DNA from: a virus
Reading direction: 5' to 3' (one strand)
IMG/VR virus record: IMGVR_UViG_3300010885_006384
Coordinates: 1 to 36,632 of that record
DNA length: 36,632 nucleotides
Both the position numbers and the translations under genes were made by a program. How positions within the stretch are numbered: the stretch's first letter is position 1; each line of letters begins with the position of its first letter. Below are positions 2 through 22,024 of this stretch, piece after piece. Below the pieces are notes generated by a model. That model had not been told where the DNA came from and made no database searches. It saw nothing but the letters and a program-made list of their open reading frames with translations.

Positions 2-1783
2 CCAACTTCGCAACAACAAGACAAACTTAATGCGTTTAAACAAACAGACCCACAAGCATATTACAACGCTGTGCTTAGTCAAAAAGCAAAAGAAATAGGC
101 TGGGATGCTGGGCAAAATAAAACCAACCAAGACAATAACGCACAATTTCAAAATTTAGCTCGAGAAGCTATGGCTGCTGGTTTGTCTAGTAATGATATAA
201 ATAATATATTTAATAGTAATTATCAAACTACAGCAAAGATGAGTGCTGAAAGGGCTGTTAAAGATGGATTAAATATTGGATCAATTATAGCTGCCGTTGT
301 AGTTGCTGTTGTTGCGCCTGAATTAGCTCCCGCCATTGGAGCTTCATTAGGATTAACTGGTGCTGCTGCAACCGCTGCTGGTACTGCTGCCATTGGAGCT
401 GGATCTGCTGCTATAGTTACCGCTGCTAACGGTGGAACACCAACTCAAATTGCTGATGCAGCTTTAATTGGAGGCGCTACTGGTGCTGTAGGCGGTGTTG
501 CTGCTCCTGTAGCTAGTGAAATATCTAGTGTTGTAGGAGCTGATGCAGCAAGTATTATTGCTAACGCAGCAACGGGTGCAACAAGATCAGCCATAAGCGG
601 TAACGATCCTATAGCTGGAGCTGCTACAGGCGCTGTTGGTACTGCTATTGCAGAAACAGGCGTTCCTTCACCGATTGCTGCTGCTGGCGCAGGTGCATTG
701 TCTGGTGCATTGACTAATAAAGATCCTCTCGCATCTGCAATTGCTTCTGGTGTAACAAATTTAGTTTCAACCAGCGGAACAAGCCCTGATGCGACTATAA
801 ATCCCGCCACTGGAGAGGCTTATACAGGTAGCGATCAAAGCGCGACGATTAGTCCTACTTTGGAAACACCCAACCCAACAACTGCTGTAGTGATGGCAGT
901 TGATCCTGTAAATCAAACTGCTGCGGTAATGGATTCAACGGGGAATGTTTTACAAGTGACGGCAACACCAGATATACAACCAGGATCAACTGTATCTGTT
1001 GACCCTAGTACAAATGTAGCCACAGTCACGCAACCCGCAGATGTAACACAACCTGCTGCCGAACCTACTGCTGGAGTAACTACACAATTTTTGCCCGAAG
1101 GAAGTCAAGTTCTAACTGATGTTGGAGGAGGAACTACTACACCTTTTGTTCCTGCCGAAATTACACCAGAAAATGAACCTATTGAACCTGCGTCTATAGA
1201 ACCTGATGCTGAAACAACTCCTACACCTGTTGAGCAAAATATCTTAGATCTTATTGCAAAGGATCAACCAGCAACTGTAACTTCTGCTCCTGTTGAACAA
1301 CCATTGCCTGTAACCTCAGAACCTGTAGAGCAACCTGCTCCTGTTGAGCAACTAGCAACTCCAGAAGCACCAATTGCTGTACCTACACCTGTTGAGCAAC
1401 CAACACCCATAGAACAACCTGCTCCTGTAGATCAATTAGCGCCTGTTGAACAACCTGCTCCAATATCTCCAGTAATATCACCTATTCAAGAGCCAGAGCC
1501 TGTTGAATCTGCTGTAATACCTCCAGATCAATCTACAGAAACGCCAACAGATACAACCGAATCTACCTATACACCATCACCAAAAACCTTCACAATAGGT
1601 GGTATCACACCTAGCACTAGTAGTGTTTTTTCTACTAGAGATCCTTTGGCATCGGCATTATTAGGTAGTCAAGGACCAGCCGTTAATCCAACTCAAGCTG
1701 CTGGAGAACCAAATATGCTAGGTGACGGAAAACGAAAAAATGTATGGAATTTGGAATCATTAAGAGGAGCGTTAGGAATATAA
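2..1783 (+). CDS. Probable internal/ejection virion protein, 5' end cut by window edge
   Basis: The frame is open from base 2, so the first in-window start (GTG at 71) is probably not the true start. The encoded protein has three zones. The first is a hydrophilic Gln/Asn-rich N-terminal part. The second is a long Ala/Gly-rich hydrophobic stretch (about nt 275-780) with repeated small-residue patterns such as GAATGAVG, which could enter or cross a membrane. The third is a Pro/Val/Glu/Gln low-complexity tract (about nt 1220-1510) with repeated PVEQP units. It is followed at once by further structural-looking genes. A role as an ejected internal protein is inferred from composition and position; no catalytic motif is seen. 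If the contig is circular, this is the 3' part of the gene that begins at 36345, giving a protein of about 685 residues. Confidence 0.75.
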   Translation, partial: PTSQQQDKLNAFKQTDPQAYYNAVLSQKAKEIGWDAGQNKTNQDNNAQFQNLAREAMAAGLSSNDINNIFNSNYQTTAKMSAERAVKDGLNIGSIIAAVVVAVVAPELAPAIGASLGLTGAAATAAGTAAIGAGSAAIVTAANGGTPTQIADAALIGGATGAVGGVAAPVASEISSVVGADAASIIANAATGATRSAISGNDPIAGAATGAVGTAIAETGVPSPIAAAGAGALSGALTNKDPLASAIASGVTNLVSTSGTSPDATINPATGEAYTGSDQSATISPTLETPNPTTAVVMAVDPVNQTAAVMDSTGNVLQVTATPDIQPGSTVSVDPSTNVATVTQPADVTQPAAEPTAGVTTQFLPEGSQVLTDVGGGTTTPFVPAEITPENEPIEPASIEPDAETTPTPVEQNILDLIAKDQPATVTSAPVEQPLPVTSEPVEQPAPVEQLATPEAPIAVPTPVEQPTPIEQPAPVDQLAPVEQPAPISPVISPIQEPEPVESAVIPPDQSTETPTDTTESTYTPSPKTFTIGGITPSTSSVFSTRDPLASALLGSQGPAVNPTQAAGEPNMLGDGKRKNVWNLESLRGALGI

Positions 1784-1784
1784 C

Positions 1785-2822
1785 ATGGCAAATATCAATG
1801 AAGCTCTAGGTACAGATTTAGCAGCTATTGCTAAATTATTACGATCTAAAGGTCGTGGTAAAGACACAGTTCTCGCTCACATTACTCCTAAAGAAGCTGC
1901 GCTCCTAAAGCGTAGAGGTGGTTCTGGCACAACAAATCCGGATACGGGTTTGCCTGAATTTGAAGATAGTTTTGACGCTGGCAGCATGGATATTGGTTTT
2001 GGTCCTGGTCAATATACACCTCAAACAAGTCCAGCAGAGATTCAAGGCTCTACATTTACACCGCAAGAAAATGCAATGTATGGGTATTCTGATCCATCTG
2101 TTGCATCACAAGCCCCTGTTCCTAGTTATGATCCTATGCAAGCTGGTCAAGAAGGATTTGCTTATTCAGGAGCGCCAGGTCAACAAATATCCCCAACACA
2201 AACTGCTTATACCCCAGATATGAAAGGTATGAGTGGCGCAGATATTTTAGCTTTGCAACAAGGAAATTATCCAATTACCCCTGCTGGCGCACCTGGTGCA
2301 ACTGGGGGCGGTGGCGGACCTAAACCAGAATCAGCTATCAGTTCTTTGGTTAATCCAAAAACATTAGCTATGCTTGGTTTAACAGGCGCTTTAGGTGCTT
2401 ATGGCGCAAATGTAGCCCGTAAAGCGGGAACTCAAACACAAGCTGCTACTGCCGAACAAAAAGCCATTGCACAACCTTATCAACAACAAGGTCAACAATT
2501 AGTTACTCAAGCGCAACAAGGATCTTTGACTCCTGCAAGCCAACAAGCATTAGATGCTGCAAAAGCCCAAATAAACCAACAAACAGCAAACAGAGGTGGA
2601 GTTGGGGCGCAACAATCAGCTAATCAAATAGCCGCTATCTATCAAACTTTGTTAGATAATCAATATAAATACGGTTTGCAAATCATGCAAATTGGTGACA
2701 ACATTAGTATTGGCGCTATTAGATCTGGTTTGCAATTAGACCGACAGCTACAGCAATCTACTAACAATTTCTATAGTCAATTGGCAAGCATTGTTGGCGG
2801 TCAACCAATAAGGGTAGCATAA
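1785..2822 (+). CDS. Probable internal virion protein, Gln/Gly-rich
   Basis: The 345-residue product starts one base after the preceding stop codon, and its own stop overlaps the next start (TAATG). The N-terminal 45 residues are helical and basic. Residues 50-180 are Pro/Gly/Gln/Tyr-rich and look disordered, with a Gly run near 172-177. Residues 191-210 form a hydrophobic segment (LAMLGLTGALGAYGANV). Residues 215-285 are a Gln/Ala-rich helix. Combining a disordered region, one hydrophobic helix and a Gln-rich helix is common in proteins ejected by short-tailed phages. I do not recognise a named family; the role rests on composition and operon position. Confidence 0.75.
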   Translation: MANINEALGTDLAAIAKLLRSKGRGKDTVLAHITPKEAALLKRRGGSGTTNPDTGLPEFEDSFDAGSMDIGFGPGQYTPQTSPAEIQGSTFTPQENAMYGYSDPSVASQAPVPSYDPMQAGQEGFAYSGAPGQQISPTQTAYTPDMKGMSGADILALQQGNYPITPAGAPGATGGGGGPKPESAISSLVNPKTLAMLGLTGALGAYGANVARKAGTQTQAATAEQKAIAQPYQQQGQQLVTQAQQGSLTPASQQALDAAKAQINQQTANRGGVGAQQSANQIAAIYQTLLDNQYKYGLQIMQIGDNISIGAIRSGLQLDRQLQQSTNNFYSQLASIVGGQPIRVA

Positions 2823-4129
2823 TGGCTGAAACAAATAATGAAAATTTAGCTCAAGCCGTTAGCACGGATTTAAAGCAATTTCCTTTTTTAAAAGAGGAAA
2901 AAGCAGCAAAAGAAAAGGCTGTTGAATCCAAAATTAAAGCTGAATCTGCTAAAGAAGGCGAAGTTCTTAAGCAAAAAGGACAAGCGTTAGAAAAAATTGG
3001 CTCTGAAGATAAGGCTGAATACGAAGAAACCATGAGCTTGATGCAACCTGCTCCTGAGTTTAAGCCTACCCAAGATAACATGATGGACATTGGTGGCTTG
3101 TTTAGTTTAGTAGCTACTATGGGAGTTGCTTTAGGTGGCAGTGGAAAACTATCATCCTTAAACGCTTTAAACGCTATGGGCGGTATGCTCAAAGGTTATC
3201 AAGCAGGTCGTAAAGATTTGTTTACTAAAGAACAAGCCATTTTTGACAAAGAAACTGCTCGTATTAAAGATGTCAATGACCGTTTAATTAAAAATTTAGA
3301 TCAATACCAAAAGTTAAGAGTTACTGACAAAGAAGCTGCTTTGATTAAAGCACAAGAGATTGCCACTACTAACCCTGGTGTTATTGCTCAATTAGTTCAA
3401 TCAGGTCGTGATGACGTAGCTGCTGAAATTGCCAAGCGCAACAGCGATATGCTGATAAAAATGAAAGAATTGGCTACTAAAAATGCTATGAGTGGAAAAG
3501 GTGGTGGCTCAAAATCAGCTATCAATGAACGCTTCCAAAACACGGTTATCCGTTCCGCAAACGAAACATTACGTTCATTAGAGCTAATGGAAAACATTGG
3601 AATTGACATTGGAAAAGGTGGTTTAGGTGGTGTTGTCGGAAAAGGAACTCTTGCATCTGAAGCTATTGCCAACCTTACTAGAACTATGACAAGTCAAGAT
3701 CAATTACGGTATAACGCTGCTGCTGGTGGTATGGCTCTTGAATTGGCTTATGTAATGAATGGTGGATATAAACCAAACGAAACGCAAATTACCGAACTTA
3801 AAAACCTTTATTTAGCAACTCCACAAGATAGTTATGAAACTGCTGCATTTAAGTTTGCAGATGTGGTTGCTAAGTTAAAAGCTGCTTTAGATGTTGCTCC
3901 AGCCTATACAGATCAACAAAAACAAAGTAATCAAATGCTTTTGGAAAAAGTTAATAAATACGCCACACCAGAAGAAATCTTGCAAAAGATTAGTGGTCAA
4001 CCACTTCAAACAGATCCGTATTTAAGAACTGGAGAAAAACCAAAGCCAACTCAAGAAGATATTGACTACGCAAAAGCACATCCTGAAGTTAGACAAAAAT
4101 TCATTGATCGTTTTGGAGTAGAACCATAA
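2822..4129 (+). CDS. Probable internal virion protein with coiled coil
   Basis: The 435-residue product is translationally coupled to both neighbours by TAATG overlaps. Residues 20-70 are Lys/Glu/Ala-rich and predicted coiled coil. Residues 88-125 form a hydrophobic Gly/Met/Leu-rich segment. Residues 130-220 are again charged helix, followed by a Gly/Ser linker (GKGGGSKSA) and a mixed C-terminal domain. No enzyme motif is visible. The layout (coiled coil, hydrophobic helix pair, long helix) fits an ejection or tail-lumen protein, which is inference from architecture and from the run of similar genes around it. Confidence 0.75.
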   Translation: MAETNNENLAQAVSTDLKQFPFLKEEKAAKEKAVESKIKAESAKEGEVLKQKGQALEKIGSEDKAEYEETMSLMQPAPEFKPTQDNMMDIGGLFSLVATMGVALGGSGKLSSLNALNAMGGMLKGYQAGRKDLFTKEQAIFDKETARIKDVNDRLIKNLDQYQKLRVTDKEAALIKAQEIATTNPGVIAQLVQSGRDDVAAEIAKRNSDMLIKMKELATKNAMSGKGGGSKSAINERFQNTVIRSANETLRSLELMENIGIDIGKGGLGGVVGKGTLASEAIANLTRTMTSQDQLRYNAAAGGMALELAYVMNGGYKPNETQITELKNLYLATPQDSYETAAFKFADVVAKLKAALDVAPAYTDQQKQSNQMLLEKVNKYATPEEILQKISGQPLQTDPYLRTGEKPKPTQEDIDYAKAHPEVRQKFIDRFGVEP

Positions 4130-5948: not shown

Positions 5949-8540
5949 ATGCCAGATAGCATGATTGTAGTACCCCAACCAGCACAAACTGATCCCGTTG
6001 GTAAATATAGGGTTTCAACTCCCCAGTCATTGATTGACACTGACTTTGAATATGGTCAACAATCTACTAAATGGGAGCAATTGGCGTTAGAAAACAACCG
6101 TCAATCATGTTACTACTTTACCAACAACCCATTAAACATTGGATCTATTACTGGTAACGGAACAACAACTATAGTCGTTCAATCCAATTCAAACATTGGC
6201 GCTAACAAACCAATATTTTTGGAAGAAACGCTAGACCCTAATGCTAACGGGTGGTTTTATACGCAATCATCTAATGCTACGGCAATTATTGTTCAAACAA
6301 CTAGTAACACAGCTAGTGGTGCTTTATATAATCCTACCGCTACCTATGGCTATCAAGGTTTTTTCTATACCAACGCAGGTATTCCAGTAACAGCAAGTAG
6401 CTCCACTGCCATCATTCTTACTGGTAGTTTAATTGTAGTAAACACTACATACGCTCACGGTTTGTCTGCTGGTTCTTTGGTTTACATTGTTAATACAACT
6501 GGTGTTGCGGGATTAAATAACGCTTGGGTAGTTTCTGCTGTTCAATCTGCAAATCAATTTCAAATTGCCTCTACATTAACAGGTACAGCTACAACTGGTA
6601 CGGCTCAAGGTACAGTTTATGCAAGACCATCAGGATACGTTGAAACCCGTGCTTTTAACGGTTCTGTAAACTTTACTGCGGGTTCTGCTGTGCCAAATCA
6701 GCAAATGATCCGTCAAACAAGACGTTATTTCCGCTATCAATCTGGTAAAGGTATTCAGTTTTCAACTGGTTCTGTATTAAAACCAAGATTATTGACGAGT
6801 AACGTCACTGCTAGTGGATCAGTCATTACTGTGGTAACTCGTACTCCACATAACTTGACCACCAATGCAACTATTCAAGTAACTGGCGCAACAGCTAATA
6901 CTTACAATGGTATTTTTAAAATTCAAAGTATTCCTAATGCCAATACCATTACTTATAACACTGTTAATAACGTCACCCCTACAAGCAGCGTAGCGGTAAC
7001 GTCAACTGGTTTCCCACCAAACGTGTACCCTTATGGCTGGTATGGATCAAGCAACAAAATTGGCTTTTTTGATAATCAAAACGGTATGTTTTTCCAATTT
7101 GATGGTCAAACTTTGTATGCCGTTTATAGAAATAGCACCAACCAATTAGGCGGTGTTGTTGCTGCAAGCCAAGGTAACGCTACTGTTACTGGTACAGGTA
7201 CGTCATTTACAAGCCAGATCAACATAGGTGATTTTATTGTTATTCGTGGTCAATCTTATCGTGTTACCAATATTTTTAGTGACACCAGTATGAATATTGC
7301 CCCTGAATACATGGGTGCATCCGTTACACAAGCGCTAATTTCAAAAACAGTTGATTTAAAGATACCTAACTCACAATGGCTAGATCCTTGTGACGGCACA
7401 GGTCCTTCTGGATACAACATTGACCTAACCAAAAACCAAATGTGGTTTATTGATTACTCTTGGTATGGTGCTGGTGTCATTCGTTGGGGATTAAGAACCA
7501 CTAACGGCACGATCAATTACGTTTATGCCTTACAAAGCAATAACGTGCAATCTGGTGCTTATCTTCGCTCTGGTAACTTACCAAGTCGTTATGAATCTAA
7601 CGGTCAAGGTCCAATAACTACCCTTTATTCAAATATTACTAACGTAGCAAACGTCATTCCAGTAGTAAGTTCTTCTGGTTTTAGTCCTTTAGGAGGCACA
7701 GTAAAAATTACTGGATCTGCTGTAAATGCTGCTATCGAATACGCAAACTACACAGGTATTATTGCTAACTCAGCCTCAGGATTAGGCTACGATCAGTTAA
7801 CTGGTGTGACTAGAGGTGTCACAGGTGGAGCTGCTGCAACCGCATTTACTGCTGCAACTCCTGCAACTAATGCAACCCCACCAGTATCAGTAGAGTATTC
7901 TCCTCCTGATTCTGTAGCAGTAATTTCACACTGGGGTTCATCTGTTGTAATGGATGGTGGATTTTCTAATGACGTATCACTGATCTTTAACTACGGAACT
8001 ACTGCTAACGTGACAGTTGCCAATGGTGGCGTTGTTCCTATTCTTGCCATTCGTGTAGCTCCTAGCGTAGATAACGGCACAGTTGGAACTCTTGGCAATA
8101 AAGAGGTTATCAACCGTTTACAGTTGCAATTACGTGAATTAGGTGTTGTAACATCTGGTGCGTTCTTAATTCAATTGATTTTGAATGGTCAGGCAACTAG
8201 CTTTAGCGGTACTTTTGCTTCACCAACACAAAACAACACTTACACATCATCTATTTGTCAGGTGGCTGCAAACTCTAATGCTTCTGCAACCATTACTGGT
8301 GGTGAATCAATTGGAGCTGCGTTTACTAATAGCACTGGACAAACAACCCTTGATTTAACATCTATTGCAGGTATTGGTAATGCCATTTTGGGTGGTGGAC
8401 TAAACAATAACGTTCCATCTGCAACTAATGCAGGTCAATTTCCAGATGGTCCAGATATTTTGTATGTAGTGGCAAATAACGTAAGTGGTGGTAACGCAAC
8501 CATTATTGCCCGTTTAAGCTGGCAAGAATCTCAAGCATAA
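5949..8540 (+). CDS. Large tail/virion surface protein with beta-rich repeats
   Basis: The 863-residue protein is rich in Thr/Asn/Gly/Val. After an N-terminal motif (PQPAQTDPVGKYRVSTPQSL, residues 9-28) come two similar beta-type modules at about 165-210 (THAHGL-like, here TYAHGLSAGSLVYI) and 297-340 (TPHNLTTNATIQVTG...YNGIF). A related module lies at about 405-455 (GNATVTGTGTSF...IGDFIVIRG). The C-terminal 250 residues are another beta-rich domain. I recognise the N-terminal motif as typical of structural proteins in marine and freshwater short-tailed phages. The inserted modules suggest an exposed, receptor- or glycan-contacting tail component. The exact particle location is unknown. Confidence 0.8.
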   Translation: MPDSMIVVPQPAQTDPVGKYRVSTPQSLIDTDFEYGQQSTKWEQLALENNRQSCYYFTNNPLNIGSITGNGTTTIVVQSNSNIGANKPIFLEETLDPNANGWFYTQSSNATAIIVQTTSNTASGALYNPTATYGYQGFFYTNAGIPVTASSSTAIILTGSLIVVNTTYAHGLSAGSLVYIVNTTGVAGLNNAWVVSAVQSANQFQIASTLTGTATTGTAQGTVYARPSGYVETRAFNGSVNFTAGSAVPNQQMIRQTRRYFRYQSGKGIQFSTGSVLKPRLLTSNVTASGSVITVVTRTPHNLTTNATIQVTGATANTYNGIFKIQSIPNANTITYNTVNNVTPTSSVAVTSTGFPPNVYPYGWYGSSNKIGFFDNQNGMFFQFDGQTLYAVYRNSTNQLGGVVAASQGNATVTGTGTSFTSQINIGDFIVIRGQSYRVTNIFSDTSMNIAPEYMGASVTQALISKTVDLKIPNSQWLDPCDGTGPSGYNIDLTKNQMWFIDYSWYGAGVIRWGLRTTNGTINYVYALQSNNVQSGAYLRSGNLPSRYESNGQGPITTLYSNITNVANVIPVVSSSGFSPLGGTVKITGSAVNAAIEYANYTGIIANSASGLGYDQLTGVTRGVTGGAAATAFTAATPATNATPPVSVEYSPPDSVAVISHWGSSVVMDGGFSNDVSLIFNYGTTANVTVANGGVVPILAIRVAPSVDNGTVGTLGNKEVINRLQLQLRELGVVTSGAFLIQLILNGQATSFSGTFASPTQNNTYTSSICQVAANSNASATITGGESIGAAFTNSTGQTTLDLTSIAGIGNAILGGGLNNNVPSATNAGQFPDGPDILYVVANNVSGGNATIIARLSWQESQA

Positions 8541-8548
8541 GGAAAATC

Positions 8549-8764
8549 ATGAAAGACGAAAGCGGAAAAAAGAACAAGATGTTTACGGCTAAAGAATCAC
8601 AGCCTGTAAGAGTTGAAACTATTAGCGATACTTATGGTCATCATAAGCACTATCGTTTGGGAACAATGCCAGCGGGGGGTTTCCAATCTGTATGGCGTTT
8701 TGAAGATGACCAAGATACAAAAAACAGCTCAAGCTCGTTCCCAGGCGGAAAGAAGGTTTATTGA
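8549..8764 (+). CDS. Small hypothetical phage protein
   Basis: The 71-residue, polar, His- and Lys-containing protein starts eight bases after the tail protein, behind AAGGAAAATC. It has no membrane segment or signal peptide. It contains GTMPAGGFQSVWRF and ends in a Ser-rich basic tail. Its stop lies just before the next small gene. Its job is unknown; the context is the tail-to-lysis junction. Confidence 0.65.
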   Translation: MKDESGKKNKMFTAKESQPVRVETISDTYGHHKHYRLGTMPAGGFQSVWRFEDDQDTKNSSSSFPGGKKVY

Positions 8765-8765
8765 T

Positions 8766-8918
8766 ATGAAAGGCGATAAAAAAGTTGGTCTTGGTTTGAA
8801 AGCAATTGGTCAAACCATGAATCCAAAGCTAAAGCAAGGCGCTCCTGAAACTCTGCCTGTTGCTGCTGGTGTTAAATCAGCTCGTACAAGCCATAAAGCA
8901 GATTCTAAGAGCAAGTAA
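8766..8918 (+). CDS. Small basic hypothetical protein (50 aa)
   Basis: The ATG at 8766 follows GAAGG and lies one base after the previous stop codon, so I prefer it to a longer reading of the same frame that would overlap the upstream gene by about 150 bases. The product is Lys-rich (MKGDKKVGLGLKAIGQTMN at the start, SHKADSKSK at the end) with no hydrophobic segment. It may bind nucleic acid or be a minor virion component; neither is shown. The stop is immediately followed by the endolysin start. Confidence 0.55.
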   Translation: MKGDKKVGLGLKAIGQTMNPKLKQGAPETLPVAAGVKSARTSHKADSKSK

Positions 8919-9383
8919 TTGGACAGAAAGCCCGCTGCTGCTATTGTTGCAAGCGCAGCGGTGCTTGTTGGTGTGGCTGTACATGAAGGATATAAAAGCA
9001 CTGCCTATCAAGACGTAGGTGGTGTTTATACCGTAGGTTACGGTCAAGCAGACGGTGTTAAAAAGGGTGACGTTACCGATCCAGTCAGAGCTTTAGTAAA
9101 GCTAGAGCAAAGTTTGGATGAACACGCCAAGGGGATGGTGCAATGTATCAAAGTACCTGTATCTCAAGGAGAATACGATGCTTATTTGGACTTTACCTAT
9201 AATGTTGGGGTGTCTGCTTTTTGCCATTCAACCCTTAATAAAAAGCTCAATGACATGGATTATGCAGGGGCTTGCAAAGAGCTTTTAAAATGGGTTACTG
9301 CTGGTGGGAAACCACAACCAGGACTTGTTAAACGCAGACAAGAGGAATATGAAAAGTGTTCGGCTCAATCCAATACAAATTGA
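8919..9383 (+). CDS. SAR endolysin, GH24 lysozyme (muramidase)
   Basis: The 154-residue enzyme cleaves the glycan strands of peptidoglycan. The catalytic triad has the spacing of T4/P21 lysozymes: Glu23, Asp32 and Thr38 (HEGYKSTAYQD then YTVGYG). Residues 6-22 (AAAIVASAAVLVGVAVH) are a weakly hydrophobic, Ala/Gly-rich helix, as in signal-anchor-release endolysins that are exported by Sec, stay membrane-tethered and are released when the membrane is depolarised. The start is TTG at 8919, directly after the previous stop; the ribosome site is weak (GAGCAAG). The 3' end overlaps Rz by 28 bases. Cysteines are present but not near the active site. Confidence 0.92.
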   Translation: MDRKPAAAIVASAAVLVGVAVHEGYKSTAYQDVGGVYTVGYGQADGVKKGDVTDPVRALVKLEQSLDEHAKGMVQCIKVPVSQGEYDAYLDFTYNVGVSAFCHSTLNKKLNDMDYAGACKELLKWVTAGGKPQPGLVKRRQEEYEKCSAQSNTN

Positions 9384-10144: not shown

Positions 10145-10942
10145 TTATTCAGTAGCAATTAGTTGACCTTCAAAAGCATACGTGCCAACGTGGGCTAATC
10201 TAACCCAAGGCGCTGCAAATACTTTCCCACCAATCAAACGCCATTCACGGCAAAAGTGATAGTCCTCAGACAATAAACGATTGGTTTCTGGTTCAATTGA
10301 AGTAGCAAAATATTCTGCAATTTGATCTCCTTGTAGCATTGTTTTATTTAGATCAACTACGTCATTAGAATAAGACGGTACATGAGGTCTTAATTTATCA
10401 AACACTTCACGCTTAATCATCATAAATCCAGTGCCACCATTAAAGATTTCTACTGGTTCATTCATTGGCACAGTAACTTCTCCTACATAATCCACTAAAT
10501 TTACTACAAAACTTCCTGTATGAAATTTAAGCTGATCTTCTGGTACGCCTTCATCCATGGCTCTTTTGACGCTATTCCAATTGATTTCTTTTTTTGGATA
10601 AATACCACAAATAACATCTTTGTCAGCTTGTAGCATCGTAACAATGTCTATTGGGTTAAACAAAATGTCAGCATCAATAAACATTAGATGAGTGCAATTA
10701 GATTTTAAAAATGCTTGGGCTAATGAGTTTCTTGCACGAGTAATTAAGCTCTCATTGAACATAAAGCTAAATGACAATTGAATATTATTGTCAGCACATA
10801 TTTTAGTCATTTGCAATAAAGATTGGGTGTAGTAACCAGCGCACATACCTCCATACATCGGAGTAGCCAACAATATATTTGGCTGTACAGGTTCTTTTTT
10901 ATCTTGAAATTGTTTCAAATCTAATTTTTTCTTCTTAGCCAT
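10145..10942 (-). CDS. GT-A fold glycosyltransferase-like protein
   Basis: The 265-residue protein has an N-terminal nucleotide-binding pattern (NILLATPMYGGMCAGYYTQS, residues 22-41). A DXD-type metal/nucleotide-sugar motif follows a hydrophobic strand (LMFIDADILF, Asp90 and Asp92). Later motifs are NGGTGFMMIKREVF and SEDYHFC, the latter typical of the second acidic site in GT-A enzymes. The likely reaction is sugar transfer from a nucleotide sugar, in the cytoplasm. The acceptor (DNA base, capsid, lipopolysaccharide or a small molecule) is unknown. It is the last gene of the leftward operon, eight bases after the radical SAM gene with its own AAGGAAAATC ribosome site. Confidence 0.8.
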   Translation of the reverse strand: MAKKKKLDLKQFQDKKEPVQPNILLATPMYGGMCAGYYTQSLLQMTKICADNNIQLSFSFMFNESLITRARNSLAQAFLKSNCTHLMFIDADILFNPIDIVTMLQADKDVICGIYPKKEINWNSVKRAMDEGVPEDQLKFHTGSFVVNLVDYVGEVTVPMNEPVEIFNGGTGFMMIKREVFDKLRPHVPSYSNDVVDLNKTMLQGDQIAEYFATSIEPETNRLLSEDYHFCREWRLIGGKVFAAPWVRLAHVGTYAFEGQLIATE

Positions 10943-10950
10943 GATTTTCC

Positions 10951-12045
10951 TTAAATGAAGTTATCGGTACTAGCGTTTACATAATCGTTAATCAATATGT
11001 TCTTTCCATCGTTAGAACATTCGTGCATACAAGTAGTTTTGGCATTAAATTTATTAAAGTATTCCTTGGTTTCTTTGCTAAACCATAAGTCTGTAAACCT
11101 TTTGCCGTTAATAGAGCCTATGCAACCAGTGCTATCGTAGGCTTTGTTATGACAGGCATACACATTAAGATCCGCACCGATGACTGGCACGGTTTGCATG
11201 ATGTAACATCTTTTATAGCTTCGTACACTAGAGTGACTGCTGCCAGGAGTAATGTTATAAGTGCTATTAACACTAAAGTTTTCAGAAGTAATAGTTTGAA
11301 TTTTTGCAAGTTGCTCATTGACTTCATCTGCTATTTCCTTATGGTAATCATAAAAATCTGGCACATACATTGGACTAAAACGCACATTTTCAACACCACA
11401 GTCTTTTAATAACTGACTGTACCCCCATAAATTTTTGTAATTGTTGCGATGCACAATATAATTCACCCCTAAATCACAGTTTGCATCTTTAATGGCAGCA
11501 AAATTTTTAATATTCTTAATAACAGAGTCAAAGCTCTTTTCAGGCACGTTCCTAAATCGCTTCATTTCAGCGCCATCGGTGTAGTCCATACTGACCCTTA
11601 CCCATTTAGCTTTTGACAGCACCTCGGCACGTTCTTTGGCTAAATTTTGACCGTTAGTGATGATGGATAGATCAAGACCTAACTCTAATGTTCTACGCAT
11701 GATTGGCACAATGTCAGGGTGCATCAATGGCTCACCACCACCAGAATAGGTCACTGCTTTAGTACCTATACGTTGCAAGTCATAAAGAATTTCCATCATC
11801 TTTTCAGTGGGGATGACATCATCTTCTTTCATATCTTCGTGCATCCCACTAATGATGTGCTGCTCATCCCCGCCATCTTTCACCCTAAAACCAGTGCTAT
11901 ACACGCAAAAAAAACATCCGTGATTGCAAATGTTAATTGGCTTGATGCGAACATATAGCGGTGCTAAAACCTCCCCCGCCCCAAAAGATTTCAGCTTTTC
12001 TGGAAAATAAAATATCTTAAAATTGCTGTATTTGTTGTTTTTCAC
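10951..12045 (-). CDS. Radical SAM enzyme with SPASM-like C-terminus
   Basis: The 364-residue protein has the radical SAM cluster motif Cys40-X3-Cys44-X2-Cys47 (CNHGCFFC) and the GGE-type SAM-binding motif (SGGGEP, about 101-106). C-terminal Cys280, 298, 308, 339 and 343 resemble a partial SPASM/twitch domain that could hold an auxiliary Fe-S cluster or bind substrate. Such enzymes start radical chemistry from S-adenosylmethionine; the substrate here is unknown. The GTG start at 12045 follows AAGGA and overlaps the upstream stop (GTGA), so it is coupled to the E1 beta-like gene. SPASM members often modify peptides, but others act on sugars or small molecules. Confidence 0.88.
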   Translation of the reverse strand: MKNNKYSNFKIFYFPEKLKSFGAGEVLAPLYVRIKPINICNHGCFFCVYSTGFRVKDGGDEQHIISGMHEDMKEDDVIPTEKMMEILYDLQRIGTKAVTYSGGGEPLMHPDIVPIMRRTLELGLDLSIITNGQNLAKERAEVLSKAKWVRVSMDYTDGAEMKRFRNVPEKSFDSVIKNIKNFAAIKDANCDLGVNYIVHRNNYKNLWGYSQLLKDCGVENVRFSPMYVPDFYDYHKEIADEVNEQLAKIQTITSENFSVNSTYNITPGSSHSSVRSYKRCYIMQTVPVIGADLNVYACHNKAYDSTGCIGSINGKRFTDLWFSKETKEYFNKFNAKTTCMHECSNDGKNILINDYVNASTDNFI

Positions 12046-12557
12046 ATTAAATCCTTGTATTCAACAATGATGCAAGATTTTTTTCTTGACATTGCCAGCC
12101 CATAGGCAGTTTTGACAAAATTCTCATTTAGCACGTTATAAATAGGTATTTCAACCATATCACGTAATGGCGCAGTAAAATTTTGAACGTGTGTTGCACC
12201 CGTGTAGAGTGGTTTTGTGATATTACCTACAATGCAGCGAATGATGACAACAGGATCAAACTCATCATTGCTAATGTCTTTGATTTTGTCTAAATGATTG
12301 ACTATTGCATCCATTGCGTTCATCAAAAAATCCATTCTTTCAATAAAAACAACGGGTTTTAGCCCTGTTAGCGCCATTCCAATAGCAACTCCCATCATTA
12401 AATTTTCCGCTACTGGCATTTCTATAATTTGACCATCTGGCACGTTATTTAAAGTGCCTAATGCACGACCCTTTTGCAGCCCATAGCCAATAAAACGCGT
12501 TTTAGGATCTTTTGCAAGCTCAGTATTTGAGTTAGTGATCTGCTCTTTGTATGTCAT
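12042..12557 (-). CDS. Thiamine-diphosphate enzyme, E1 beta-like Pyr domain subunit
   Basis: The 171-residue protein resembles the N-terminal pyrimidine-binding domain of transketolase and pyruvate dehydrogenase E1 beta. It has a short strand and loop (RFIGYGLQKG) and a motif EMPVAEN, whose Glu51 should correspond to the Glu that activates the cofactor. MGVAIGMALTGLKPVVF is typical of this domain. The C-terminal transketolase domain is absent; full E1 beta chains are about 325 residues. Start and stop overlap both neighbours (ATGA, GTGA). It probably forms a heteromeric enzyme with the next-upstream alpha-like chain. The donor substrate cannot be inferred. Confidence 0.82.
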   Translation of the reverse strand: MTYKEQITNSNTELAKDPKTRFIGYGLQKGRALGTLNNVPDGQIIEMPVAENLMMGVAIGMALTGLKPVVFIERMDFLMNAMDAIVNHLDKIKDISNDEFDPVVIIRCIVGNITKPLYTGATHVQNFTAPLRDMVEIPIYNVLNENFVKTAYGLAMSRKKSCIIVEYKDLM

Positions 12558-13174
12558 TTTTTTTCTTTGAAAATAATGTGTTTTTTTGTGCCGTTACCAG
12601 CATGAGGATAAGTAGCGGTATATTCATTGCGTATTACGCAAGATGGCATTTCAAACCTAAATTTATTAGGATTACGTTCTTCAAGAGTGGTATCTACTGA
12701 TCTGTTGTTATCTTCAATAATGAACATACAAGGTAAATCTTGACCCTCTACAAACATCACAGCCTCGTAAAAGTGACCTTGCTCCTCAGCTCCATCACCT
12801 AAAAAGCAATATACCCAGTTATCACTGCCTGATGCTTTTAGTGAATAAGCTACACCTGCTGCAATACCACAAGTGCCAGCCAAAATGCTCGAAGTAAAAA
12901 AATGACGATTACTGTCGAAAACAAACATAGAATTGCCATGCAAAATACGTTCCATAAGCTCAGGTTCGGGTATTCCAGCCAATAAAGCGTGATGATGATT
13001 CCGATGAGTGCTGAAAATCCAATCTCCATCTTTGATATCCTGTTTGAATAAATCAATCAAAAAATCTTCATTACCGCCTGATAGGTGTATGAGATAAGGC
13101 AGATCACCGTTTTCCCAGTGTTCCGATACCTTTTTCTCAAACGCAATAAGCTGTTCTTTTGTGCAGTATTCCAT
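12554..13174 (-). CDS. Thiamine-diphosphate enzyme, E1 alpha-like PP domain subunit
   Basis: The 206-residue protein carries the diphosphate-binding signature GDG (126-128) followed 27 residues later by NN (156-157), the GDG-X27-NN pattern of these enzymes. HRNHHHALLAG (57-67) resembles the His-containing loop of E1 alpha. It is about 120 residues shorter than a normal E1 alpha (about 330). With the beta-like gene it looks like a two-chain mini transketolase or decarboxylase. The gene is coupled to the upstream membrane-protein gene by TAATG and to the beta-like gene by ATGA. Reaction type is known at superfamily level (C-C bond cleavage or transfer next to a carbonyl); substrate unknown. Confidence 0.85.
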   Translation of the reverse strand: MEYCTKEQLIAFEKKVSEHWENGDLPYLIHLSGGNEDFLIDLFKQDIKDGDWIFSTHRNHHHALLAGIPEPELMERILHGNSMFVFDSNRHFFTSSILAGTCGIAAGVAYSLKASGSDNWVYCFLGDGAEEQGHFYEAVMFVEGQDLPCMFIIEDNNRSVDTTLEERNPNKFRFEMPSCVIRNEYTATYPHAGNGTKKHIIFKEKK

Positions 13175-13365
13175 TAGTAGCGCTCAATAGTTAACCAAAA
13201 ACAATATGCAAATATCGCTACAAACACTAACACCCCCATAAAAGCCCAAAAACCATCGTATTGACCTGTTTGCGGTTTCTCTATGGCAGTTGCATAGTCA
13301 GCATCTCTAAACGCCTCAGAAGCGCTCCTATACGTTTTACCTTCTCCGTAATTCCATTGGCTCAT
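13174..13365 (-). CDS. Small single-span membrane protein
   Basis: The 63-residue protein is polar for the first 40 residues and has one hydrophobic segment near the C-terminus (about 42-60, FWAFMGVLVFVAIFAYCFWL). The start is set by AAGGGGATAAC just before ATG. The stop overlaps the E1 alpha-like start (TAATG). It is the first gene of the metabolic cassette. It might place the cassette products at the membrane or be unrelated. No family recognised. Confidence 0.65.
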   Translation of the reverse strand: MSQWNYGEGKTYRSASEAFRDADYATAIEKPQTGQYDGFWAFMGVLVFVAIFAYCFWLTIERY

Positions 13366-13429: not shown

Positions 13430-13813
13430 CTAATTGACGGCAGATTCCCCTTGAGCTGGTGATTGATCCATTACATCTAACATTACTACGCAGCCACCGC
13501 CCTTTTTTGTAGGACCTCTTGTAATTGATACTCGTTGCACCTGGCAATCATCATCAAATACTCCAGCATCTTGTAGCGCATCCAATATGGGTTTGATACA
13601 GTTATCAATATCCATCAATTTTTTAGATCTTGGATGTAAAACAATTTCAACCCACATGGCAGAGTTTCCAAACTTAGGAACACGCCACTCCACAACATAA
13701 TCTGCAACAAACGCTTTAAAATCCCTGCCACGCTGACTAATAAACCTACGATGCCCACTAGCTATCCAATAATTGTTGATTGATGGTGGGTAAGGTAGGT
13801 TTATATAAATCAT
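13430..13813 (-). CDS. rusA: RusA-family Holliday junction resolvase
   Basis: The 127-residue protein (E. coli RusA is 120) starts YINLPYPPSINNYW, the usual family start. It keeps the acidic metal-binding residues: Asp68 and Asp70 (MDIDNCIKP) and the Asp cluster 87-89 in GVFDDDCQV, matching Asp70, Asp72 and Asp91 of RusA. It cuts four-way DNA junctions, resolving recombination or replication intermediates before packaging. It lies downstream of RecT and a YqaJ-type nuclease, completing a recombination set. The start is coupled to the upstream Cys-rich peptide gene (TAATG). Confidence 0.92.
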   Translation of the reverse strand: MIYINLPYPPSINNYWIASGHRRFISQRGRDFKAFVADYVVEWRVPKFGNSAMWVEIVLHPRSKKLMDIDNCIKPILDALQDAGVFDDDCQVQRVSITRGPTKKGGGCVVMLDVMDQSPAQGESAVN

Positions 13814-16709: not shown

Positions 16710-16886
16710 TTATTTGTTAAGTGTTGTTTTTTCCTCCATTGGCTTATTTGGATCGTGAATAATTACATCTCCATTGGCGTTGATATAATAGAGATCTCCC
16801 AGCTCTTTCGCTCTAATAAGCTCTCGCTGTTGTACTTTAGCGTTCATTTCCATCCACTTTGCTGCATCATCATCTGCTTTACTCAT
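16710..16886 (-). CDS. Small hypothetical protein (58 aa)
   Basis: I start this gene at the ATG at 16886 because GGGGGAA lies just upstream and because ATGA overlaps the methyltransferase stop. An ATG four codons earlier is less well placed. The product is charged and helical at the N-terminus (MSKADDDAAKWMEMNAKVQQ), with a short beta-like segment (LYYINANGDVIIHDPN). No family recognised. About 70 bases of AT-rich sequence separate it from the next gene. Confidence 0.65.
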   Translation of the reverse strand: MSKADDDAAKWMEMNAKVQQRELIRAKELGDLYYINANGDVIIHDPNKPMEEKTTLNK

Positions 16887-17467
16887 AAATTCCCCCATTG
16901 ATCTGCCATAGCTTCAGCAATACCTTCAAAAGTCTTAGCACGATTCTTTTGTCGGTCTTTGCCACCTTTGTTAAACCAATTTCCTGCTATCTTGGTGCTT
17001 TCCTTCACCTCTACTATGTTTGTGGGCGTAAGATCTGGCAACCCTCTAAGCCATAAACAAGTCTTTTTCTTGTATGGGTGTCCGTATTCATAAGGCTGTA
17101 TTGTTTGCGTATAGCGTGGCAATTCAAATACAGTAGATGGAATAGGGTTTTCTATACATATTTTGGGAATTGATGCGTTATAAAGAGCCAAGAAAAACTC
17201 TTTAGCTTCCATTCCTTTAGACAGACGATCAGGGTTTAAAATTCCTTTAGGGTATAAATGCCTTGCACCTGCATTGGATAGATATGTGCATGGAGGGTGA
17301 GCAATCATTAGATCCCAATCCCATTGCAACACATCTCTAATATCGCCTTGATAGTGGTTTCCAGCCTTATCAGTTGGCAAGATGTCGCAACTCATAGCGT
17401 AATGCCCTGCTTGCGTGAAAGCATCTCTCACTCTGCCTGAGTATTCACAAGCTACTAAAACCCTCAT
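16883..17467 (-). CDS. DNA cytosine methyltransferase-like protein
   Basis: The 194-residue protein from the ATG at 17467 (GGAG eight bases upstream) has a Rossmann-like SAM site (MRVLVACEYSGRVRDAF) and an acidic residue after strand 2 (SCDILP). A Pro-Pro-Cys motif follows (HPPCTYLSNAG, Cys60), then ENP (IENP, 106-108) where m5C enzymes have ENV. The family is common in phages and usually called DNA cytosine methyltransferase, but it is much shorter than typical enzymes (more than 300) and lacks a clear target-recognition domain. Activity should be treated as likely methyl transfer to DNA, target unknown. Confidence 0.75.
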   Translation of the reverse strand: MRVLVACEYSGRVRDAFTQAGHYAMSCDILPTDKAGNHYQGDIRDVLQWDWDLMIAHPPCTYLSNAGARHLYPKGILNPDRLSKGMEAKEFFLALYNASIPKICIENPIPSTVFELPRYTQTIQPYEYGHPYKKKTCLWLRGLPDLTPTNIVEVKESTKIAGNWFNKGGKDRQKNRAKTFEGIAEAMADQWGNL

Positions 17468-17507
17468 TTGTTGCACTCCTTTAAAAAATATGTTTTAATC
17501 CGCTTAA

Positions 17508-17601: not shown

Positions 17602-17793
17602 TAATACGGGGCATTTACCCAGCCCTCCTAAACATTGTGGTGATGGATAGGGATAAACGAGGTGGCTTTCATCTGTCAGACCTTTACAGGAACGCACTGG
17701 CTTAGTTAAGCACCAACCGATAAACGATAACCACTCTCTTTTTGAGAACTTCCGCCCTAAGCGGGTTTGGGGCTTAGCTCTTTTCTCAATCAC
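17563..17793 (-). CDS. Possible small protein downstream of the PP-loop gene (76 aa)
   Basis: The likely start is GTG at 17793, overlapping the end of the PP-loop gene by eight bases. The frame runs further upstream only inside that gene. The product is basic then Cys-rich (EKRAKPQTRLGRKF at the start, CLGGLGKCPVLVCFNGG near the end). Its last codons lie in the inverted repeat described at this position. No family recognised. Tight overlap supports expression, but no clear ribosome site is seen. Confidence 0.5.
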   Translation of the reverse strand: MIEKRAKPQTRLGRKFSKREWLSFIGWCLTKPVRSCKGLTDESHLVYPYPSPQCLGGLGKCPVLVCFNGGFNGEWS

Positions 17794-18607
17794 CACAAAA
17801 ACACGCAATACCTTCTTCATCTGCAAACAGGTCATCTTGCTTTCCCACATTGTCAAACATCTGTTGGTAACTTGGTCGATCTTTTCTAAACCTTGCCCCA
17901 TCCCCTGTAAATTGACCAGCAGAGTGGATTCGAGCTTCCTGAGTAGCCCACCAGATCGCACGAGATGGTTTTTCAGCAATAAGGGATTGAATTTGATGAC
18001 GACCTTTTAAAAAGCATAGGTCACAATTACCATGAACAGTTTTACCCCCTCTGTTAGGTAATCCCAAATCAAAGGGTTGCTCTTGCCAAAACTTGCCAAC
18101 ATCGGCAGCAGTAACTCCTGCCGTATAAAGTGGCACACGCTCACGTGACATTTTGACTGCTCTGCGGGGTTCATCGGCTCTAATGCCAACCCAATCCATG
18201 TTTTCGTTGTGTTCCCAACCTAATGATTTTAAGTAGCGGTGAATGGTTCTAATCTTGAGTTCTATGGTGCAAAACCTCGTTACAGGGTTTGGAAGATAGT
18301 TTTTCTTGGTAATTAAGGCTTCAAACGGCTCTCCAGACCTGCTGGCAGTTAAAAAGTCCACCACCTTAAACTTGGGATCGGTTGGCAAATACTCAACCCA
18401 TGCGATAGGTACTTTCCAATGCTCTGAGCAATCCTGAACGAATCTGAGTGTTGCTTCTTCTTCCTTACCTGTATTTGCAAAACAAACCACAGCTTCTTCT
18501 GGTAACCCGTCATTGGACTGCAACACCCGCCAAAGCATATAAGCGGAAGTTCTGCCACCGCTAAAGCTAATCACAGTCGGTTCTAATATCTTAAAGGGAT
18601 CACTCAT
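17786..18607 (-). CDS. PAPS reductase-like PP-loop protein with Cys cluster
   Basis: The 273-residue protein has the PP-loop ATP pyrophosphatase motif SFSGGRTSAYML (residues 14-25), followed by CFANTGKEEEATL, as in the CysH/DndC superfamily. Five cysteines (113, 195, 198, 269, 271; GNCDLCFLKG and ACFCGD) could bind an Fe-S cluster. Members either reduce PAPS in sulfur assimilation or activate a substrate for sulfur transfer, as DndC does for phosphorothioate DNA. Lack of the CysH C-terminal redox motif argues against simple PAPS reduction. Proximity to a DNA methyltransferase-like gene makes nucleic-acid modification possible, but this is inference. Confidence 0.85.
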   Translation of the reverse strand: MSDPFKILEPTVISFSGGRTSAYMLWRVLQSNDGLPEEAVVCFANTGKEEEATLRFVQDCSEHWKVPIAWVEYLPTDPKFKVVDFLTASRSGEPFEALITKKNYLPNPVTRFCTIELKIRTIHRYLKSLGWEHNENMDWVGIRADEPRRAVKMSRERVPLYTAGVTAADVGKFWQEQPFDLGLPNRGGKTVHGNCDLCFLKGRHQIQSLIAEKPSRAIWWATQEARIHSAGQFTGDGARFRKDRPSYQQMFDNVGKQDDLFADEEGIACFCGD

Positions 18608-19902: not shown

Positions 19903-20619
19903 TTACAGTTTATTTAGCGTTACGGTATTGTCAGTTAAATTGACTGTTTGATGACCGCAGTAAAACTTACGGCTTAAGATATTGTTTTGATTAAAGATAT
20001 TGAACGTAGTCCACATCGGACCAGTAGCTACGCCCTCTATGTGCTGGCAATATTTACTGATTGCGCCTATGCCAGTCACGTCTAAACCCCAGTCTAGGGT
20101 GCAAGAAACCATCCCTGTAGGGGCAGTTGTGACTACTTTTAGCCCCTGATTTGACAATTCCCGTACCCGTTTTTCAAAAAATTTGGGGGTAAAGTCTGGT
20201 AATTGCCCAGATGACGGGGATGAGTTAATGACCAGGACATCAAAATCAATGTCATACGGTTCATTTAGGGCGGGGTAATCGAATAACAGATCTTCCCTGC
20301 AAGCCATAGGAGAGGAAATCTCAAGGATGTTAGATAGATGATCGAACCATTCTAAGTAAAAAGCTACCCAATCATGCTGTAGTGGATGGCTGTAGAAGTA
20401 GTTATCCCTACCAATCCAAGCATTATGTGCGCCACTCGGGATACTTAGCCCTTGCAAGCTGATAGGCATATCCTCTACAAGAGGGGTTAGCTGGTCAATA
20501 TGAGCAGGATTGACATGGTGCGTGAACTCTAGATGCGGTTCTTGCTTGCAAACTCTGCGTAAATAGTTAAGATGAACTAGGTTATCCCCTAGACGATATT
20601 CATTGTATGTGTGTATCAT
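19903..20619 (-). CDS. GT9-like glycosyltransferase (heptosyltransferase-type fold)
   Basis: The 238-residue protein begins with MIHTYNEYRLGDNLVHLNYL, a pattern like the N-terminal GDxLVHLxFLR segment of GT9/GT-B type proteins. It has a Rossmann-like second half (FDVLVINSSPSSGQ, then GLKVVTTAPTGM) ending with a short ligand-contact region (GIGAISKYCQHIEGVATGPM). It is shorter than bacterial heptosyltransferases (about 320-350), so it may be a reduced or divergent member. The acceptor is unknown. It is transcribed leftward, divergent from the 20658 operon, and has no clear ribosome site. Confidence 0.65.
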   Translation of the reverse strand: MIHTYNEYRLGDNLVHLNYLRRVCKQEPHLEFTHHVNPAHIDQLTPLVEDMPISLQGLSIPSGAHNAWIGRDNYFYSHPLQHDWVAFYLEWFDHLSNILEISSPMACREDLLFDYPALNEPYDIDFDVLVINSSPSSGQLPDFTPKFFEKRVRELSNQGLKVVTTAPTGMVSCTLDWGLDVTGIGAISKYCQHIEGVATGPMWTTFNIFNQNNILSRKFYCGHQTVNLTDNTVTLNKL

Positions 20620-21091: not shown

Positions 21092-21317
21092 TCGGTTAAG
21101 AAAAGAAAGACTCTTGTATAAGACTGAAATGTTAAGGGCGTTATCTTGCCGAACCAAGAAGCAGAAAATAGCGCTTGCAAGCGAGTGGAAGGCGAAGTAC
21201 AGCCCAATGACCTATGACGGTCTTATCAGCCTGGCTAAGAACCATGTAGCACGTTTAAAGGTGGCTTATTGGGATTTACCTAACTTTGAAGAAAAACGGA
21301 TGGAGAAGCACAATTGA
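21078..21317 (+). CDS. Small basic helical hypothetical protein (79 aa)
   Basis: Three in-frame ATGs exist (21060, 21072, 21078). I prefer 21078 because GAGG lies six bases before it. The product (MQDTDRLRKERLLYKTEMLR at the start) is Lys/Arg-rich and helical, with the later segment SPMTYDGLISLAKNHVARLK. Its stop overlaps the TTG start of the glycosyltransferase gene (TTGA). A nucleic-acid-binding role is possible from charge alone. Confidence 0.62.
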   Translation: MQDTDRLRKERLLYKTEMLRALSCRTKKQKIALASEWKAKYSPMTYDGLISLAKNHVARLKVAYWDLPNFEEKRMEKHN

Positions 21318-22024
21318 AAACCGCAGCCGTAGTAACCGTAACTAGGGGTGATCGCCCTTGGGAGCTATCCAATTGCATCGCTTCAGTCAAAGCTCAAACG
21401 TATCCTGCAAACCATTACATTTTGTGTGACGGTGATTTTGATAATTTTGTAAAGATTAAAAAAGATTATCCAGAAGCAAAAGTCTGTTATTGGGATGCCA
21501 AGATTGGCGGTGATGGTTATGCGGGGCAACGCTGGTTAGCTGCTGCGCCTCAGTTATTGACTGAGGAAGTCGCTTTCTTTTGTAACGATGACGATTGGTA
21601 CGATCCTGACCACGTAGCATCCATCATGAGCAAGATTGAGCAAGGGTATGATTGGGCGTATAGCCTTAGGTCAATCTATGACAAGGAGGGGAACTTTTTG
21701 TTTGATGACAACTGCGAAGCCCTCGGAGAGCTACACGATTCATGGAATATCCCAGGTCATCACTTTGTTGACTGGTGTATGTGGGGAATGAAAACCTCAT
21801 TCCTAAAACAACTAGCAATTATTCTCAATCAACCTAGCCCACAAGTGGATCGGCAGTTTTATGAGGCTGCAACGCAGATTGTTCCTAATTTCACCTCTAC
21901 CAACAAGCACACGTTTAATTTTAGGCTTGGCGGGGAATGTGGCGTACAAAAAGAATTCTTTGAGATGGGCAACCACTCCCTGCTACAACGGTTTAATGGC
22001 AAATTGCCTTGGATCATTACATGA
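21314..22024 (+). CDS. GT2-like glycosyltransferase coupled to the terminase gene
   Basis: The 236-residue protein has a GT-A layout: N-terminal strand AVVTVTRGDRPWELSNCIAS, then a DXD-type motif after a hydrophobic strand (FFCNDDDWYDPDH, Asp92-94). SLRSIYDKEGNFLF and a later HHFVDWCMWGMK segment follow. It likely transfers a sugar from a nucleotide donor. The start is TTG at 21314 (GGAG eight bases upstream, overlapping the upstream stop), and the stop overlaps the TerL start (ATGA). A glycosyltransferase welded to terminase suggests a function needed with late genes, for example sugar addition to a virion protein or the DNA. The acceptor is unknown. Confidence 0.8.
   Translation: MKTAAVVTVTRGDRPWELSNCIASVKAQTYPANHYILCDGDFDNFVKIKKDYPEAKVCYWDAKIGGDGYAGQRWLAAAPQLLTEEVAFFCNDDDWYDPDHVASIMSKIEQGYDWAYSLRSIYDKEGNFLFDDNCEALGELHDSWNIPGHHFVDWCMWGMKTSFLKQLAIILNQPSPQVDRQFYEAATQIVPNFTSTNKHTFNFRLGGECGVQKEFFEMGNHSLLQRFNGKLPWIIT

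Follow-up and report, generated by a model that had tools for sequence, protein, structure and literature searches.

Five genes lie on the minus strand of an IMG/VR virus record (IMGVR_UViG_3300010885_006384, analysed over its 36,632 bases and called the window below), between positions 10145 and 13365. In the direction of transcription, they code for a membrane peptide of 63 amino acids (aa) (13174-13365); alpha, a 206-aa chain similar to the PP-domain chain (E1 alpha) of thiamine diphosphate (ThDP) enzymes (12554-13174); beta, a 171-aa E1-beta-like chain with the Pyr domain (12042-12557); a 364-aa radical S-adenosylmethionine (SAM) enzyme with a GTG start and one auxiliary-cluster domain of the twitch type (10951-12045); and a 265-aa GT-A-like glycosyltransferase (GT; 10145-10942). 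Consecutive genes overlap by 1, 4, and 4 bases, with a gap of 8 bases between the radical SAM gene and the GT, exactly the tight spacing that an initial annotation made from the sequence alone had described. A RusA-like resolvase (13430-13813, minus strand) adjoins alpha, beta, and the radical SAM gene on the side opposite the GT.

The unit is a three-gene module formed by alpha, beta, and the radical SAM gene. The initial annotation had taken all five genes as one operon, a view that we rejected on two grounds: one related phage without the trio has the GT directly after RusA, and the peptide occurs only locally. The closest database GTs (69% identical) are found in Manatee Spring phages, one of which carries RecE, RecT, a 115-aa protein, RusA, and then the GT, and neither Manatee Spring phage stretch has a match to alpha, beta, the radical SAM enzyme, or the peptide (E value of 1e-3). 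The GT has a strong match to phrog_1574 and a further one to the glycosyltransferase family phrog_34859 (1.2e-6), reaches 27.9 bits against Anp1, just below the cut-off of 28.8, and keeps D90 and D92 (D-x-D) invariant among its relatives; its family is present in 63 phage records. It is probably a resident gene of this phage lineage, older here than the trio. Most simply, the trio would have been gained by insertion between RusA and the resident GT; the alternative is that it was lost. The peptide was found in 11 of the 24 viral relatives scanned (L002-L025), and because these are only the closest ones, we place it outside the module. A second glycosyltransferase, of family 2 (Pfam, 6.9e-9), is coded on the plus strand of the window at 21314-22024, just before the packaging genes; a gene for sugar activation was not found in the set of window ORFs scanned.

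The loci compared came from the best 80 of 279 and the best 80 of 410 relatives, picked by similarity to two seeds; the 410 are the matching stretches of the fused-sequence scan. In the 24 viral relatives, alpha, beta, the radical SAM gene, and the GT come after RecT/RusA, in one order wherever the contig reaches. At 90% identity, the window lineage forms 19 clusters, all with alpha followed by beta; the radical SAM gene comes next in 18 of the 19 representatives (in L015, the end of the contig cuts it short), and the GT is present in 15, the contigs of the other four, L075 included, ending before it. Eight of these representatives have an insert of more than 100 bases between alpha and beta. 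The inserts are unrelated open reading frames (ORFs), and we therefore rejected the idea that they hide a missing enzyme. Those in L022 (8615-9745), L023 (8615-9172), L004 (3011-3708), and L021 (2233-2780) can serve as examples; by eye, two inserts resemble a cytosine methyltransferase-like protein and another modification-like protein, and others contain a repeated family of small proteins, most of whose members start with MNNEPVAW.

Outside this lineage, the gene order varies. The 735-kb phage genome LR756501 has the order beta-radical SAM-alpha, with products 47 to 57% identical to those of the window, and further phages share this order and have an adjoining two-part GT. In the cyanophages S-SM2 and P-TIM68, alpha and beta make up one chain, coded inside sugar clusters, and these fused genes, as in many other viral contigs, adjoin a zinc-dependent alcohol dehydrogenase (Zn-ADH) of the medium-chain dehydrogenase/reductase (MDR) family. 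Cellular copies came from seven assemblies (two Nanoarchaeota, another archaeon, one of the Desulfobacterales, two bacteria of the candidate phyla radiation, and Prochlorococcus AG-402-G19), and 8 further cellular loci, as distant matches (25 to 34% identical), were left out. When 279 genomes of the archaeal group were searched, 6 matched, including one known before. Among the five loci thus added, four show a radical SAM match beside the pair, one is alpha alone and interrupted by stops, and none has a Zn-ADH. In the archaeal trios, the ThDP pair is fused or split and lies beside radical SAM genes. Among the 286 genomes searched in the phylum of the Kaiserbacteria genome, a single one, known beforehand, has the enzyme. 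At least two diverged radical SAM genes lie near alpha and beta in loci from Desulfobacterales and archaea (L034, 7547-10935; L039, 8696-10880; L251-L253). The initial expectation that the genes would be conserved together in relatives is thus borne out across lineages for alpha, beta, and the radical SAM gene but not for the set of five.

Both ThDP chains are minimal. Alpha matches E1_dh (4.6e-18) over profile positions 8 to 170 of 300, and Transket_pyr (PF02779; 1e-9) is the sole family matched by beta. Against curated models, alpha obtained 2e-26 with TIGR03182 (pyruvate dehydrogenase E1) versus 2e-6 with transketolase, and beta obtained 9e-15 with PRK09212 versus 1e-4 with dxs, scores that all fall far below the curated cut-offs. 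Judged by its sequence, the pair is of the E1 type, and a transketolase type is disfavoured. The two chains match the two halves of a single PHROG, phrog_34187 (405 aa, function not assigned). The transketolase C-terminal domain is absent from beta, the C-terminal part of alpha is missing, and no C-terminal domain of the transketolase/DXS architecture was found in either split or fused forms, so the chains are indeed stripped of other domains, as first described. The alignments likewise bear out the cofactor motifs that had been read from the window alone. Alpha has GDG at 126-128 and, 27 residues later, N156-N157; H57, R58, H62, D127, P190, and H191 are invariant in its relatives and N156 is nearly so, and the chain carries a conserved HR.HHHALL loop. 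In beta, Glu51 and His123 are invariant. Across 34 fused sequences, D123 and E272 (equivalent to D127 of alpha and E51 of beta) are also invariant, and N152 is nearly so. This conservation goes beyond chance, because relatives of alpha with 52 to 97% identity keep both their reading frames and the cofactor residues.

We modelled a fused homologue (L097, whose alpha part is 57% identical to that of the window) from the 34 sequences, with a predicted local distance difference test score (pLDDT) of 91.9 and a predicted template modelling score of 0.92. Its second (Pyr) half matches E1-beta with a Z score of 23 over 170 residues at 1.7 Å, and the whole chain matches human transketolase with a Z score of 20.8 over 348 residues at 3.8 Å. 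Because the predicted fold matches both, we consider that the two chains can adopt the PP plus Pyr domain arrangement of transketolase and E1; the initial annotation had contemplated that predicted structures might preclude a ThDP site, and the prediction for the homologue points the other way. By analogy with transketolase, the active site would be complete only in a dimer.

The third gene of the module codes for a protein that matches Radical_SAM (3e-20) and reaches 20.9 bits with SPASM, just below the cut-off of 21.5. Seven cysteines (C40, C44, and C47; C280, C298, C339, and C343) are invariant in 22 sequences of the enzyme. Beside the CxxxCxxC motif, the four auxiliary cysteines fit a one-cluster twitch domain, in which they would act as cluster ligands. 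Of the SPASM-like cysteines reported at first, the auxiliary residues are therefore there, in a four-cysteine twitch and not as the full SPASM set. In the relevant passages of PMC9012708, four auxiliary cysteines mark BtrN, which oxidises a cyclitol alcohol, and three mark MoaA. The model of the window enzyme (pLDDT of 85.9, with residues 51 to 62 poorly predicted) has a predicted fold of the BtrN/DesII/BlsE kind, with Z scores of 25.5 for DesII, 24.1 for BlsE, and 17.1 over 224 residues for BtrN; SkfB and MoaA were also matched, and the profile of the radical SAM enzyme aligns its auxiliary domain weakly to BtrN (E value of 0.002). The window enzyme is thus similar to BtrN, a twitch-type radical SAM dehydrogenase, in its cysteine pattern and fold, but is about 100 residues longer, has a ThDP enzyme as its partner, and is closer in fold to DesII and BlsE. 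The BtrN step is carried out elsewhere by NAD-dependent zinc dehydrogenases. DesII and BlsE, among the nearest solved folds, act on nucleotide-linked sugars, although they catalyse deamination and decarboxylation, and we know of no ThDP partner for either. As the fold does not reveal the catalytic outcome, these best matches would also suit a different glycan-tailoring chemistry, in which a ThDP decarboxylase or acyloin-cleaving enzyme acts on the same nucleotide sugar as a radical SAM epimerase, ammonia-lyase, or decarboxylase. We regard this as improbable, since replacement by an MDR-family zinc dehydrogenase points to plain alcohol-ketone redox.

That replacement was examined in 211 loci with full-length alpha and beta, grouped in 64 non-redundant clusters, by looking for a partner within 6 kb. 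A radical SAM gene alone was found in 30 clusters, a Zn-ADH alone in 32, both in none, and neither in 2 (L034 and L039), which hold weaker radical SAM paralogues and are both counted as radical SAM in the tree. No rSAM-type cluster has a match to the ADH profile within 8 kb, even below the threshold, and weak radical SAM (rSAM) matches (25 and 36 bits) appear in 2 of the 32 ADH-type clusters. In a maximum-likelihood tree of the 64 rows, the partner label changes three times, and all three changes are forced by well-supported branches. The clearest swap is L143, where the ThDP enzyme is nested in an ADH-type clade and the radical SAM enzyme is 75% identical to those of the beta-radical SAM-alpha phages. 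The oxidoreductase partner has therefore been swapped between two unrelated enzyme types at least three times on the tree. This exchange with a zinc dehydrogenase suggests, indirectly, that the radical SAM enzyme may be a two-electron alcohol oxidant. The viral contig L230 joins dehydrogenase and ThDP enzyme in a natural fusion, as one of its reading frames (7008-9158, about 716 codons) is matched by the profiles for Zn-ADH, alpha, and beta alike.

All informative genomic contexts are, as far as sequence families indicate, glycan or nucleotide-sugar biosynthesis. By Pfam, the 106 genes neighbouring 15 ADH-type loci include 10 PfkB kinases, 7 short-chain dehydrogenases, 5 sugar epimerases or dehydratases, and 4 FkbM methyltransferases, as well as GTs. 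Around rSAM-type loci of lineages other than that of the window, 71 neighbours included 12 radical SAM proteins, 6 epimerases, 4 FkbM methyltransferases, 2 C-methyltransferases, and GTs. A short-chain dehydrogenase is nearby in 16 of 32 ADH clusters versus 2 of 32 rSAM-type clusters. A small neighbour in rSAM-type phages (cl6) matched no Pfam or NCBIfam family, and one member has weak PHROG matches with no function assigned; its LGDN...STGPSW motifs read as GT9-like by eye, a likeness that no search result backs. An unannotated protein of about 250 aa (A8) is coded directly upstream of beta or the radical SAM gene in L101 (7634-8380) and six relatives, all rSAM-type phages; by eye, its motifs resemble those of GT9.

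The ADH clusters bring in another possibility, namely that the small ThDP enzyme extends an aldose (phosphate) by a transferred ketol or acetyl unit and so makes a linear C7 (or 1-deoxy) ketose for a heptose-type pathway that would continue with an isomerase, an HldE-like kinase, a nucleotidyltransferase, and a heptosyltransferase, the radical SAM enzyme or ADH adjusting the oxidation state before or after. Of the 32 ADH clusters, 25 have an HldE-like (PfkB/heptose) kinase no more than 6 kb away, and the kinase in L164 reaches 285 bits for heptose-7-phosphate kinase (cut-off of 345); S-SM2 and P-TIM68 have a phosphoheptose isomerase and nucleotidyltransferases, and L037 and L035 have heptosyltransferase-like neighbours. 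However, the kinase is present in 0 of 30 rSAM clusters and was not seen among the window ORFs scanned, the E1 scores exceed those for transketolase and DXS, and transketolase requires no dedicated dehydrogenase. We consider a linear product unlikely, if still a serious contender.

The contexts also bear on two readings that we rejected. One is auxiliary metabolism of central carbon, with a viral pyruvate dehydrogenase or transketolase redirecting host carbon. The family scores do name E1 and transketolase, and transketolase is also the annotation given to the cyanophage copies, but beta lacks its C-terminal domain and alpha its C-terminal part, the constant partner is a radical SAM enzyme or Zn-ADH, and the families shown for the neighbours scanned include no E2 or lipoyl family; the informative neighbourhoods are sugar clusters. 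Given this domain content and these neighbours, such a role is very improbable. The other is hypermodification of the phage DNA, in which the GT would attach to DNA a sugar made by the enzymes. The GT adjoins the trio and the phage also codes for a DNA methyltransferase; against this, the window ORFs scanned yielded neither a hydroxymethylating enzyme nor another base-modifying one, and the homologues in cyanophages and archaea belong to polysaccharide-type clusters, which makes a DNA target scarcely credible. The initial idea that the genes build and attach an unusual sugar therefore keeps its support from the pairing of stripped ThDP chains with a radical SAM enzyme in glycan contexts and loses DNA as one of its proposed targets.

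We slightly favour, at little better than an even chance, a two-step sugar-tailoring module in which a keto-sugar is formed and a C2 unit is joined to it, giving a product used by GTs. Starting from the established gene structure, trio conservation, cofactor residues, predicted folds, mutual exclusion, and glycan context, we propose the following substrates, step order, product, and target. The radical SAM enzyme, as a BtrN-like two-electron dehydrogenase, would oxidise a secondary alcohol of a host-supplied (nucleotide) sugar to a ketone, a step that the Zn-ADH would take over in related viruses. The minimal E1-type alpha/beta enzyme would then join a two-carbon unit, most likely from pyruvate, to the keto-sugar, giving a C2-branched or C2-extended sugar with no hand-over to a lipoyl-E2. 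In many clusters with the zinc dehydrogenase, the nearby short-chain dehydrogenase possibly reduces the new branch ketone. GTs, here the adjacent phrog_1574 one, would put the product on a host surface glycan or on the virion, and such decoration may block superinfection or change the receptor. A carboligase adding two carbons to a keto-sugar is suggested by the E1-type sequence, the short chains, the missing C-terminal parts, and the constant dehydrogenase partner in glycan clusters.

Several points weigh against this proposal. Its step order is taken from the neighbours, and a linear C7 ketose could equally explain the heptose-kinase-like neighbour so often seen in ADH clusters. A radical SAM gene and a Zn-ADH beside the same ThDP gene need not share a substrate, and their 30:32 ratio is not a natural frequency because the best 80 loci were selected. 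BtrN ranks below DesII and BlsE among the fold matches, and the fold is common to other chemistries (the decarboxylase BlsE, the ammonia-lyase DesII, and peptide maturases). Finally, several larger window ORFs have no family match, so a sugar gene may have been overlooked.

Two-carbon branching by E1-like pairs has precedents. According to the sections of PMC12247030 concerned, E1-like pairs (alphaKADH2) appear specialised for C2 branches from pyruvate. In the corresponding parts of PMC4425429, PMC4753412, and PMC10338323, AviB1/AviB2, Pau11/Pau12, and EvdU5/EvdS3 are proposed to add acetyl to keto-sugars, with the aldo-keto reductase Pau7 as the ketoreductase that reduces the branch, and acetyl addition to ketones is shown in vitro for KbDH-alpha/beta in passages of these three and PMC12247030. 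Going by those partial descriptions, the AviB1/AviB2-type systems are similar to the window module in that two chains of the E1 type are coded in sugar clusters alongside GTs, but their ketone usually comes from NDP-sugar (nucleoside diphosphate-sugar) 4,6-dehydratases or a glucuronic acid decarboxylase and not from a radical SAM or Zn-ADH partner, and Pau11 and Pau12 have 325 and 345 aa versus 206 and 171 aa, without C-terminal parts, in the window. In addition, many homologues of the window pair are fused, and the module is carried mainly by viruses. In the window, the GT and oxidoreductase adjoin the ThDP pair, and the oxidoreductase would form the keto-sugar. The split-gene transketolases of miharamycin and amipurimycin biosynthesis, as presented in excerpts of PMC12247030, also combine an oxidoreductase with a following split ThDP enzyme in a proposed keto-sugar branching; they are, however, of the transketolase type and from streptomycetes, and in those excerpts their role is proposed without in vitro proof.

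A known phage counterpart is the "transketolase central region-containing protein" (phrog_34187) of S-SM2 and P-TIM68, an alpha plus beta homologue that is 45 to 52% identical and differs in being a fused chain, in having a zinc alcohol dehydrogenase and not a radical SAM partner, and in lying within large lipopolysaccharide (LPS)-type clusters. Sullivan et al. 2010 noted the cyanophage LPS clusters and, in the part concerned, left open whether they are functional (PMC3037559). The initial claim that no phage system with this combination had been described holds in that we found no functional account and no published description of the module in the open-licence PMC text searched, but a homologue had already been deposited under the cyanophage name. 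We put forward tentatively, at somewhat less than an even chance, that this is an undescribed virus-spread cassette, combining a minimal E1-type carboligase of two domains with exchangeable radical SAM or zinc dehydrogenases, that makes C2-branched sugars for surface glycans. It would involve no new catalytic principle; what is new is the minimal E1-type form with exchangeable dehydrogenases, spread mainly by viruses.

If this is correct, we would know of no smaller E1-type enzyme, and radical SAM and NAD/zinc dehydrogenases would have replaced each other repeatedly in nature on the same substrate; with two natural alternatives for the oxidant, the substrate can be tested for directly. Hundreds of viral contigs from the environment carry the ThDP half (one scan gave 410 matching stretches), so a whole step of virus-host glycan warfare may hide under "transketolase" or "pyruvate dehydrogenase" labels, and automatic annotation could misread the enzyme as central-carbon auxiliary metabolism. 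As a small ThDP carboligase made by two genes, the pair may accept ketones, an activity that is both scarce and useful, and the module predicts C2-branched sugars on phage-modified bacterial surfaces and in small archaea.

Elsewhere in the window, four sizeable ORFs (570, 345, 435, and 238 aa; 71-4129 and 19903-20619) have no Pfam or PHROG match. The DNA methyltransferase (phrog_757) is coded at 16883-17476 and a protein similar to 3'-phosphoadenosine-5'-phosphosulfate (PAPS) reductases (phrog_424) at 17786-18607, both on the minus strand. A different phage sugar cluster, located among head genes, was seen in L031 (MW202801, 7995-12658) and contains a radical SAM gene (23% identical), a GT, a PhyH dioxygenase, a methyltransferase, a NodB-like protein, and another GT.

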